Source: Haloglomus litoreum | Lineage (GTDB): Archaea; Halobacteriota; Halobacteria; Halobacteriales; Haloarculaceae | Length of the DNA stretch: 64,000 nt | Assembly (NCBI RefSeq): GCF_029338515.1 | Contig: NZ_CP119988.1 | Coordinates: forward strand, 2,418,001-2,482,000 | Direction of reading: 5' to 3' | Part shown: positions 27,204 through 29,832 of the stretch, piece by piece | Numbering within the stretch: the first letter of the stretch is position 1 | Layout: every line of letters begins with the position of its first letter | Translations under genes and position numbers: made by a program | Notes under the pieces: generated by a model | The model's database searches: none | Seen by the model: the letters and a program-made list of their open reading frames with translations, nothing else | What the model was told of the DNA's origin: nothing

Positions 27204-27683
27204 CTAGAAGTCCGCGTCCTCGTAGAGCCAGCCCTCGGCGGACTGCTCCCAGTCGACGAGTTCCTCGTCGTCGAAGAAGAGGGCGATCTCGCGCTCGTTG
27301 GCGCCCTCGTCCTCGTGGTCGGAGCCGTGGATGACGTTCTGTCCGAGGTCCAGGCCCAGGTCACCGCGGATGGTGCCCGGCTGTGCCTCGGCGGGGTCGG
27401 TCGCGCCCATCATCCGGCGGACCTGGCGCGTGGCGTCGGCGCCCTCCCAGACCATCGCGAACACCGGCGCTGCGGTGATGAACTCGACGAGGTCGTCGAA
27501 GAACGGCTTGTCCTCGTGCTCGCCGTAGTGCTCCTCGGCGAGCTCCTGGTCGATCTGCATGAACTTCGCGCCGACAAGCTTCAGGCCGCGGTCCTCGAGT
27601 CGGGAGACGACCTCACCGATGAGACCGCGCTGGACGCCGTCGGGCTTGACCATCACGAAGGTTCGCTCGTCGTGATGACTCAT
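27204..27683 (-). CDS. ndk: nucleoside diphosphate kinase
   Basis: A 159-residue NDK, transferring the gamma-phosphate from ATP to NDPs through a phospho-histidine. Active-site H119 is in GQNVIHGSD, and the N-terminal [16 protein letters not shown] and AMVWEG segments are standard. Its start codon overlaps the L24e stop (ATGA), placing it last in the rpl7ae-rps28e-rpl24e-ndk operon, a widespread archaeal gene order. The protein is cytoplasmic. Confidence 0.98.
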
Positions 27684-28102
27684 GCTTCCTGTTCCTCCTC
27701 GGTCTCCTCGTCGGCAGCCTCGGCGTCGGCGTCAGCGTCAGCCTCCTCGGCCTCGGCGTCAGCGTCGTCCTCGGCGTCTGCCGGCTCCGACTCGCCCTCC
27801 GCTTCGGTGTCGGCCTCTTCAGCGTCGGCCTCCGCTTCGACCTCGGCCTCCTCCGGTTCCGGCTCCGGTTCGGCTTCGGCGGCCGCCTCGCGGGCGGCCT
27901 CGTCGGCCGCACGGTTCGCCTCGGCAGCCTGCCGGCCGGCCTCGGTCCAGCCGACGTTGCGGGGTTCGCGCCCGAGCTCGGCCGACCGCTCGCACTTCGT
28001 CGAGCAGAAGTGTTCCGTGGTGCCGTCCACGCGGACGAACATCGTGCCCGTGCCGGGCTCGATATCGTCCCCGCAGAAGTTGCACTCTCGCGTTCGTACC
28101 AT
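27680..28102 (-). CDS. rpl24e: 50S ribosomal protein L24e with long acidic C-terminal extension
   Basis: A 140-residue protein starting at ATG 28102. The first about 60 residues are L24e with its zinc-binding cysteines C7, C10, C33 and C37 ([17 protein letters not shown]). The remaining about 75 residues are an Ala/Glu/Asp low-complexity tail, EAEAEAD-like. Ordinary archaeal L24e ends near 60-70 residues, so this more than doubles it. The ATG shares one base with the S28e stop, and the end overlaps ndk. The core is certain. The tail may be disordered and dispensable. Confidence 0.95.
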
Positions 28103-28326
28103 TATTGGCCTCCGATGGAGTCTGCTTCGCGGGCGGTCTCGCGCAGCTGCACGACATCCCCGACCCGGACGGGCCCGAGGACGTTTCGCGTGATGATGCG
28201 GCCCTGGTTCGACCCCTCCCGGATGCGGCACTTGACCTGCATGGCCTCGCCGTGCATTCCGGTCTTGCCGACGATCTCGATGACCTCGGCGGAGGTCGCA
28301 CCGGACTCACCTTCTTCCGCGGACAT
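28102..28326 (-). CDS. rps28e: 30S ribosomal protein S28e
   Basis: A 74-residue protein from ATG 28326. The S28e OB-fold is clear from [20 protein letters not shown], the [21 protein letters not shown] segment and the usual short length. It lies one base downstream of the L7Ae stop and overlaps the L24e start (TAATG), so translation of the ribosomal genes is coupled. It is a component of the small ribosomal subunit near the mRNA exit. Confidence 0.97.
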
Positions 28327-28327
28327 C

Positions 28328-28690
28328 TTACCGGAGTTCCTCGATCTTGTTGCCGATCTCCTCGACGTCCGTGGTCGCCTCGCCGGCGTCCACGATGGCT
28401 GCGGCGGCCGAGCCGACCTCGAGGCCCGCCGCACGCCCGACGTCGTCCTGTGCACCGACGAAGATGTACGGGATCTCCTTCTCGGCACAGAGGTCCGGCA
28501 GGTGCATGACGACCTCCTCCGGACTCACGTCCTCGGCCACGAAGACGAGCATGGCGTTGCCACGCTCGACGGCCTTGGTCGTCTCGTTCGTCCCCTTCTT
28601 CACCGAGCCTGTGTCCCGGGAGACCTCGAGCGCCTCGAGGGCGTCGTCCTCGAGGTCCGCCGGAACGTCGTAGTCGACGTATACTGACAT
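28328..28690 (-). CDS. rpl7ae: 50S ribosomal protein L7Ae
   Basis: A 120-residue L7Ae, which binds kink-turns in 23S rRNA, box C/D and H/ACA guide RNAs and RNase P RNA. Family marks are [14 protein letters not shown] (the RNA-binding helix with its NE-x3-K), [14 protein letters not shown] and [21 protein letters not shown]. It heads the operon. A strong Shine-Dalgarno (AGGAGGTGA, 28698-28706) lies 7 nt before the ATG, unusual among haloarchaeal operon heads, which are often leaderless. The long leader upstream can fold into a kink-turn stem (see separate entry), suggesting autoregulation. Confidence 0.98.
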
Positions 28691-28697
28691 GGTGTGT

Positions 28698-28815
28698 TCA
28701 CCTCCTGTACACGGGCTCGCGCTCCCCCGCCGGTTCGGGCCGGCTGGCCCTCGCCCCCCGTGAGACCACAGGGGGCGTATCCTGAGAGGCTAGGAGCATC
28801 ACAACCCGGTACAGG
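28698..28815 (-). promoter_or_regulatory. candidate L7Ae-responsive kink-turn leader of rpl7ae
   Basis: On the minus strand, CCTGTAC-CGGG (28815-28805) can pair with CCCG-T-GTACAGG (28715-28704), a stem of 7 plus 4 bp with one bulged base. The second strand contains the first three bases of the Shine-Dalgarno (28706-28698). Inside this stem, an additional G-U pair is followed by a 3-nt bulge UGU, then GA on one side and GA on the opposite side. A 5-bp GCTCC/GGAGC stem follows. This is the layout of a kink-turn: C-stem, 3-nt bulge, tandem sheared G-A pairs, NC-stem. Two more hairpins lie inside. The fold was drawn by eye. Confidence 0.6.
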
Positions 28816-28841
28816 CTGTACCCCCTCGTTTCGCTCCGGCA

Positions 28842-28851
28842 CGTAAAAGCG
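28842..28851 (-). promoter_or_regulatory. possible TATA box of the rpl7ae operon
   Basis: The minus strand reads CGCTTTTACG here, a T-rich element in otherwise GC-rich sequence. A start site about 25 nt downstream would fall near 28820, just before the pairing strand of the kink-turn leader. This assignment is positional only. Confidence 0.35.
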
Positions 28852-28956
28852 TGTATGAACGCTCCCGGGGGTGACACGCGAGCGCACGGGGCTTGCGCCT
28901 GCCGCCCGACGCCTGCGGCACGAACCGTTATCCGCCTCCCGGGAGAGGGAGCAACC

Positions 28957-29832
28957 ATGCCACCAGCGACCTTCGACATCGGCGGCGCCCTGACGGTGAC
29001 CCGGCTCGGCTTCGGCGCGATGCGCCTCTGCGGCCCCGACATCATCGGCGCGCCCGACGACGAGGCCAACGCCCGACAGGTGCTCCGCGACGCCGTCGAC
29101 GCCGGCGTCGACTTCATCGACACCGCCGACTCCTACGGCCCCGGCACCAGCGAACGGCTCATCGGCGAGACGCTCGCGCTCGACGGCCCCGTCGACGACG
29201 GCCGCGAGCGCGTCGACGCCGGGGACGTGGTGGTCGCGACGAAGGCCGGCCTGCTCCGCAACGCCGGCGGCGAGTGGCTCCGCCACGGGAAGCCCGACTA
29301 CATCCGCAACCAGGTGCTGGCCTCCCGGGACCGCCTCCGGGTCGACACCATCGACCTCTACCAGTACCACGCACCCGACGAGGACACACCCTTCGAGGAC
29401 GCCGTCGCGACGTTCGGCGAACTGAAGGACGAGGGCTTCGTCGAGCACGTCGGCCTCTCGAACGTCTCCGTCGAGCAACTGGAGACCGCCCGCGACCACG
29501 TCGAGGTCGCCACCGTCCAGAACCAGTACAACGTGACGAACCGGGGGAACGAGGACGTCCTGCAGGCCTGCGAGGAGTACGACATCGGCTTCATCCCGTA
29601 CTTCCCGGTCGGCGCGGGCAACCTGAACGCCATCGCCGACACGGTCGACCCCATCTGTGAGGCCCACGACGCGACGCGCTACCAGGTCGCGCTGGCGTGG
29701 CTCCTCCACCACTCCGACGTGACCCTGCCCATCCCGGGGACGAGCGACCGCGACCACCTCGCCGAGAACGTCGCCGCCGCCGACCTCGAACTCACCGAGG
29801 CGGAGGTGGCCGAACTGACCGACGCCGCCTGA
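28957..29832 (+). CDS. aldo/keto reductase
   Basis: A 291-residue AKR-fold NAD(P)H oxidoreductase starting at ATG 28957. The catalytic tetrad is intact: D55 and Y60 in FIDTADSYGPG, K96 in VVATKAGLL and H138 in LYQYHAP. The C-terminal cofactor site shows LPIPGTSDRDHL. The length is slightly short but normal for bacterial/archaeal AKRs. It is divergent from the rpl7ae operon and lies 2 nt before the LarA-like gene, so the two are probably co-transcribed. The substrate, an aldehyde or sugar, is unknown. Confidence 0.93.
   Translation: MPPATFDIGGALTVTRLGFGAMRLCGPDIIGAPDDEANARQVLRDAVDAGVDFIDTADSYGPGTSERLIGETLALDGPVDDGRERVDAGDVVVATKAGLLRNAGGEWLRHGKPDYIRNQVLASRDRLRVDTIDLYQYHAPDEDTPFEDAVATFGELKDEGFVEHVGLSNVSVEQLETARDHVEVATVQNQYNVTNRGNEDVLQACEEYDIGFIPYFPVGAGNLNAIADTVDPICEAHDATRYQVALAWLLHHSDVTLPIPGTSDRDHLAENVAAADLELTEAEVAELTDAA

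Follow-up and report, generated by a model that had tools for sequence, protein, structure and literature searches.

A class-wide kink-turn leader of haloarchaeal rpl7ae mRNAs and its probable role in L7Ae autoregulation

The rpl7ae mRNA of Haloglomus litoreum carries a leader whose structure goes far beyond chance and has been maintained in the class Halobacteria through compensatory changes; structure, conservation, covariation, position and probable transcription start were all established in the present study. The kink-turn in this leader is very likely a binding site of ribosomal protein L7Ae, which would thereby lower its own translation by hindering the loading of the 30S subunit. Binding and repression are proposed here by analogy with other archaea. 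Autoregulation of L7Ae through its leader has already been published (Daume et al., 2017; Huang et al., 2019), and the haloarchaeal leader is a larger version.

Results and discussion

Structure of the leader

The window, i.e. the whole stretch of 64 000 nucleotides that was analysed, contains on its minus strand, in this order, the genes rpl7ae (28690-28328), rps28e, rpl24e and ndk, assigned with Pfam, and a divergent aldo/keto reductase gene (28855-29832, plus strand) lies beside the rpl7ae locus. The rpl7ae of the window is 96-98% identical to the Haloglomus (same-genus) loci and at most 87% identical to those of any other genus. Of 110 haloarchaeal loci, 109 have the genes in the order L7Ae-S28e-L24e-NDK, and the exception differs only in having no ndk. 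Read on the minus strand, the 5′ part of the leader is GUACAG-CCUGUAC-C-GGG-U-UGU-GA-U-GCUCC-UA-GCC ... AGGA, and the 3′ part that follows this AGGA is ... GGC-GGG-GGAGC-GC-GA-G-CCC-GU-GUACAGG-AGGUGA-N7-AUG. The features of the locus, with the evidence for each, are the following.

28844..28848, minus strand: TATA element (TTTTA) of the rpl7ae promoter; [T/C]TTTA at this spacing in 90 of 90 distinct leaders
28821, minus strand: predicted transcription start (+/- 1-2 nt), the G of GUACAG; fixed TATA spacing
28805..28815, minus strand: 5′ strand of the outer stem P1 plus C-helix (CCUGUAC-C-GGG); compensatory changes with 28704-28715
28801..28804, minus strand: -1b U (28804) and 3-nt bulge UGU (28803-28801), L3 being U28801; L3 is U in 72 of 72
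28799..28800, minus strand: GA of the bulged strand (G1b, A2b); identical in 72 of 72
28793..28798, minus strand: 5′ strand of the NC-helix (U-GCUCC); compensatory changes with 28721-28725
28788..28790, minus strand: 5′ strand of the inner stem P3 (GCC); paired in 70-72 of 72, with slight variation
28780..28783, minus strand: conserved apical AGGA; AGGA or AGGGA in 64 of 72
28732..28779, minus strand: variable apical region with two GC hairpins; minimum-energy fold
28729..28731, minus strand: 3′ strand of P3 (GGC); alignment and pairing counts
28721..28725, minus strand: 3′ strand of the NC-helix (GGAGC); alignment and covariation
28719..28720, minus strand: GC between the NC-helix and the GA, one nucleotide beyond a standard kink-turn; alignment of 72
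28717..28718, minus strand: GA of the non-bulged strand; identical in 72 of 72
28704..28716, minus strand: -1n G, CCC, migrating bulge and 3′ strand of P1 (GUACAGG); alignment and covariation
28698..28706, minus strand: Shine-Dalgarno sequence AGGAGGUGA, its first 3 nt within P1; sequence and overlap statistics
28328..28690, minus strand: rpl7ae (ribosomal protein L7Ae); Pfam PF01248, E 3e-25
27204..28327, minus strand: rps28e, rpl24e and ndk, the remainder of the operon; Pfam PF01200, PF01246 and PF00334

An outer stem of 11 bp with one bulged U had been proposed in the initial annotation, and its coordinates on the minus strand proved right: 28815-28805 (CCUGUACCGGG) pairs with 28715-28704 (CCCGUGUACAGG), the bulged U being 28711. 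The other elements of that proposal are likewise in place, namely the U28804-G28716 wobble, the UGU bulge (28803-28801), the GA at 28800-28799 facing the GA at 28718-28717, the inner 5-bp stem formed by GCUCC (28797-28793) and GGAGC (28725-28721), the two GC hairpins within the stem, which are present in the minimum-energy fold, and the Shine-Dalgarno sequence (28706-28698), 7 nt ahead of the ATG at 28690. One detail had been missed: between the inner stem and the GA there are two nucleotides on one strand (G28720 and C28719) and a single one on the other (U28798). The minimum-energy fold of the leader gave z-scores of -4.6 to -4.9 against dinucleotide shuffles, and none of 200 shuffles was as stable.

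Conservation and covariation

The rpl7ae leaders of 110 haloarchaeal loci gave 90 distinct sequences, 72 of which were aligned; rpl7ae lies directly 3′ of the leader in all the aligned loci. The L3 uridine and the GA/GA core are invariant (72 of 72), and the flanking helices vary freely, yet stay paired. Standard pairs occupy 96.4% of the stem cells of the alignment of 72 leaders when these are read in the structure described above, compared with at most 58% for slid versions of it. Changes on both sides were seen at 14 pairs and make up 108 such cells, compared with 22.3 in shuffles, a figure reached in none of 500. Because counting cells is not the same as counting events, the events were also reconstructed by parsimony on an rpl7ae coding-sequence tree; the real structure then accounts for about 50 independent compensatory changes on both sides of a pair, and six slid controls for 2-6. 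In the C-helix, for example, GGG/CCC is replaced by GAG/CUC in Haloarcula, by CGG/CCG in Halorussus and by CAG/CUG in L071, and the NC-helix GCUCC/GGAGC becomes GUGGC/GCCAC in Halopenitus. Covariation, which the initial annotation had named as the check to be made on the two stems, is very strong in both.

The bulge between P1 and the C-helix migrates by one position (28711-28712, alignment columns 145-146). It is U28711 in Haloglomus; in the other leaders the bulged nucleotide is mostly the preceding A or G, and alignment column 15 then pairs with the next base.

Transcription start

In all 90 distinct leaders, [T/C]TTTA begins 26-28 nt upstream of a conserved GTACAG (27 nt in 66, 26 nt in 23 and 28 nt in one). 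Since this TATA spacing is fixed, the transcription start is predicted at about 28821, a few bases ahead of P1. A start downstream of 28805, the case that the initial annotation had held against its own proposal, is unlikely, since in 90 of 90 leaders a TATA element precedes G28821, the predicted start, or its counterpart by 26-28 nt. No published rpl7ae start was found in the open main texts searched.

A 15-nt palindrome, GGTACAGCCTGTACC (28822-28808), had also been put forward as a possible competing hairpin. The palindrome does exist, with a hairpin energy of -5.2 kcal/mol; its arms, however, are not preserved in most relatives. A conserved competing hairpin was rejected, since pairing at every one of the six arm positions (GTACAG/CTGTAC), with G-U allowed, is seen in 12 of 72 leaders only. 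The palindrome is probably incidental, the conserved GUACAG standing beside a P1 strand that by chance reads CUGUAC in Haloglomus.

Anatomy of the kink-turn

In a standard kink-turn, a bulge of 3 nt that ends in the L3 uridine precedes the tandem G-A and A-G pairs, and this is what the window shows (UGU-GA/GA). The single 3b:3n pair that links the NC-helix to the tandem G-A is absent from the window and from most relatives, and is found in the relative L179 and in the compact forms described below. Because there are two nucleotides against one between the NC-helix and the GA pairs, the core of the window is to be regarded as an imperfect standard kink-turn. The same 1 nt (b strand) versus 2 nt (n strand) is seen in most leaders, and a few, e.g. 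those of Haloferax and Halobellus, have 1 versus 1; the nucleotides of the n strand at this place are GC in 52, CU in 8, GU in 4 and a single C in 6 of the 72. The -1b:-1n pair is U-G in 67 leaders, C-G in 4 and U-A in one. The bulge has three nucleotides (UGU, CGU or CAU) in 19 leaders, including that of the window, and four (UGAU or CGAU) in the other 53. As the forms with a 3-nt bulge do not have the first GA of UGAUGA, it must be the second GA that takes part in the kink-turn.

Energy models score sheared G-A kink-turns poorly, and it is therefore expected that a non-kinked register of the core, with U-G and G-C pairs, comes out best both in RNAalifold and in the minimum-energy fold of the single sequence. 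It might be argued from this preference that the core is no more than a bulged, imperfect helix of the ordinary kind and that GA/GA is a by-product, the more so as 71 of 72 leaders have C or U just ahead of the n-strand GA, and pairing of that nucleotide with G1b would be possible. Such an explanation is extremely unlikely. It leaves the invariance of both adenines unexplained, and the changes among U-G, C-G and U-A fall exactly at the last C-helix pair of a kink-turn. Moreover, the leader L179 (G052) is a textbook kink-turn with perfect helices on either side, GGGGU-GGU-GA-GGAGCCACC / GGUGGCUCC-GA-GCCC, and in view of this ideal form we take the kink-turn reading as settled. The non-kinked register may possibly represent a protein-free state of the RNA.

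The only clear break of the core that we saw is in L182 (G045), a long leader whose n strand has AA in place of GA (GGAGCGAAAGCCCC).

Distribution among genomes

With a covariance model, the element was found in 384 of 391 Halobacteria genomes. In the window genome the rpl7ae leader is the sole significant match (E 9e-29, the next best being 0.4). Three of the seven misses (G156, G211 and G368) have a diverged long copy upstream of rpl7ae. The other four, L172 (G044), L173 (G042), L174 (G057) and L190 (G404), have at the Shine-Dalgarno sequence a compact kink-turn hairpin of about 30 nt with GAU or AAU bulges, as in CGCGU-GAU-GA-AGCGC...GCGCU-GA-ACGAGGUGA. This compact layout is the one known from archaea of other groups. 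The initial annotation had considered that the leader might be absent from relatives; with 384 matches, three diverged copies and a compact form in the remaining four genomes, it is not.

The four species with the compact form are deep-branching and belong to two families, and many other Halobacteriota have leaders of similar size, of the type UGAUGA...UGAA-GAGGU. The simplest reading would be that the compact form is ancestral and that most Halobacteria evolved the long one. Outside Halobacteria the covariance model gave no convincing match, only weak ones with E of 0.02 or higher.

The idea of a regulon with further copies was discarded: the window genome has no second significant copy, and the ten significant second matches that were inspected, in nine other genomes (L154-L161, L163 and L164), correspond to coding sequence or to an unrelated gene junction. 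None of 4227 Rfam models matched the leader in the window, L093, L064, L172, L174 or L193. No riboswitch family matches the window leader, and the expected ligand is a protein, not a small molecule. Inside the rpl7ae coding sequence (28603-28655, minus strand) there is a Guanidine-II riboswitch match of 22.4 bits, below the cut-off of 32, which was taken as chance.

The Shine-Dalgarno sequence

According to the initial annotation, the second strand of the outer stem takes in part of the Shine-Dalgarno sequence. This holds for AGG (28706-28704), 3 of its 9 nt, and the stem ends at the 5′ edge of the sequence. Throughout the alignment, the overlap of P1 with the Shine-Dalgarno match is 3, 2, 1 and 0 nt in 35, 18, 3 and 16 of 72 leaders, respectively. 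Because the stem covers 3 of 9 nt here and none in 16 of 72 leaders, steric blocking appears likelier than full sequestration, and repression would be mainly steric rather than due to pairing of the Shine-Dalgarno sequence.

It should be noted that the prediction for P1 in the absence of protein is a very stable stem, with a pair probability above 0.8 in 63 of 72 leaders (an energy prediction for 37 °C, not for haloarchaeal salt), which makes an on/off switch less obvious. Taken with the inner stem, also predicted stable without protein, and with a Shine-Dalgarno core predicted to be about half unpaired, this could suggest a permanently folded leader that aids translation or guards the 5′ end, L7Ae having no regulatory role there. 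Such a function would also agree with the finding that transcripts of Haloferax volcanii are mostly leaderless and that structured leaders are called atypical (Babski et al., 2016; PMC4983044). Nevertheless, a plain stabilizing hairpin does not need an invariant U-GA/GA core (72 of 72), the leader stands before rpl7ae, the one gene that encodes a binder of this very motif, and its compact sister forms belong to a type that has been shown to bind L7Ae; we consider a folded leader without regulation by L7Ae improbable. If the stability prediction is true in cells, it would be the kinked stem with L7Ae bound to it, and not stem formation itself, that obstructs the 30S subunit.

In the minimum-energy fold, a small hairpin (GGUG-AACA-CACC; 28702-28691, minus strand) can form over the core of the Haloglomus Shine-Dalgarno sequence.

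The apical motif

The motif that follows the 5′ strand of P3 is AGGA or AGGGA in 64 of 72 leaders with GGA or GGGA in the remaining eight, about 0.02 being expected per scan window, and AGG(G)A is predicted to be unpaired in 67 of 72. The variable apical region is missing from several relatives, e.g. L067, L069 and L092. An anti-kink-turn switch in which apical AGG(G)A pairs with UCCU of the NC strand was ruled out, AGGGA being kept in L094, L064 and L097, where there is no UCCU. The motif thus persists in leaders whose NC strand offers it no partner, and it does not serve as one side of an alternative helix with that strand. Candidate roles are a ribosome standby site, a protein contact or a tertiary contact.

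A proposal that goes further, and that we put forward as a tentative and rather doubtful one, is that haloarchaea have turned a compact melt-and-fold switch into a pre-folded platform at the 5′ end. The stem would be permanent and L7Ae would bend it, the bend would place the apical AGG(G)A, a second functional site (for ribosome standby or a second ligand), and the geometry of the RNA beside a free Shine-Dalgarno sequence would bring about repression.

Proposed regulation

L7Ae is known to prefer kink-turns with L3 = U. Because the kink-turn of the leader is the RNA shape that L7Ae binds, the protein very probably represses its own production. The leader, of about 131 nt, would form an RNA hairpin with the L7Ae-binding kink-turn in its lower half. 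L7Ae in excess of what rRNA and guide RNAs can take up would bind this kink-turn and lock the C-helix and P1, which reach as far as the 5′ edge of the Shine-Dalgarno sequence. The locked stem would hinder the loading of the 30S subunit, and translation of L7Ae, possibly also that of the downstream genes, would drop. The initial annotation had extended the repression to the whole operon, and such an effect is plausible.

Kink-turn binders besides L7Ae exist, and S28e and L24e are encoded in the same operon; one of these, or another protein of the L7Ae family, could conceivably be the ligand. This we regard as very unlikely, as the tandem-GA kink-turn is the L7Ae site (PMC6298567) and autoregulation by the product of the first gene has precedent across archaea (PMC5539422). 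Mimicry of a 23S rRNA kink-turn was also considered and dropped, a motif scan of the 23S rRNA of the window genome having given nothing that resembles the leader.

Comparison with known systems

The element is a near-universal structured leader in Halobacteria, with strong covariation and no Rfam match, and it contrasts with the view that structured leaders are atypical in haloarchaea, where mRNAs are mostly leaderless (Babski et al., 2016; PMC4983044). In the literature searched there is apparently no earlier description of this long, covarying, class-wide architecture. As it occurs in organisms with good genetics, such as Haloferax, feedback control of ribosomal proteins in haloarchaea becomes directly testable.

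The kink-turn of box C/D guide RNAs is similar to that of the leader, which has a UGAUGA-like b strand in most cases and a CUGA-like n strand in Haloarcula. The leader differs in using the second GA of UGAUGA and in having neither a guide sequence nor a second box pair.

In Sulfolobus acidocaldarius, autoregulation of L7Ae through a leader kink-turn was demonstrated in vivo (Daume et al., 2017; PMC5539422). The same study describes repression of a reporter in Escherichia coli by l7ae leaders of about 50 bp from several archaea, including H. volcanii, for which a separate Kt-b strand 'further upstream' is noted. Judging from the figure legend, the H. volcanii fragment of about 50 bp would not include the b strand identified here, because in Haloferax about 100 nt separate this upstream strand from the start codon. 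In these archaeal leaders, as in the haloarchaeal one, the kink-turn strands adjoin the Shine-Dalgarno sequence. High conservation of the l7ae leader was reported there for Sulfolobales only (PMC5539422), whereas the haloarchaeal leader is conserved class-wide and combines a long outer stem with an apical region and the AGG(G)A motif.

The l7ae leader of Archaeoglobus fulgidus was studied by in-line probing and in a crystal structure with L7Ae (Huang et al., 2019; PMC6298567). It shares with the haloarchaeal leader a stem-loop with a kink-turn whose C-helix runs into the ribosome binding site. However, the A. fulgidus RNA remains unstructured in the absence of L7Ae and has its Shine-Dalgarno sequence inside the C-helix, whereas the haloarchaeal stem is predicted to be stable alone and only grazes the Shine-Dalgarno sequence. 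The haloarchaeal leader also suggests that a compact hairpin with a kink-turn at the Shine-Dalgarno sequence gave way to a long, stable stem; if as stable as predicted, the long stem would challenge the view that an l7ae leader must be unstructured without L7Ae.
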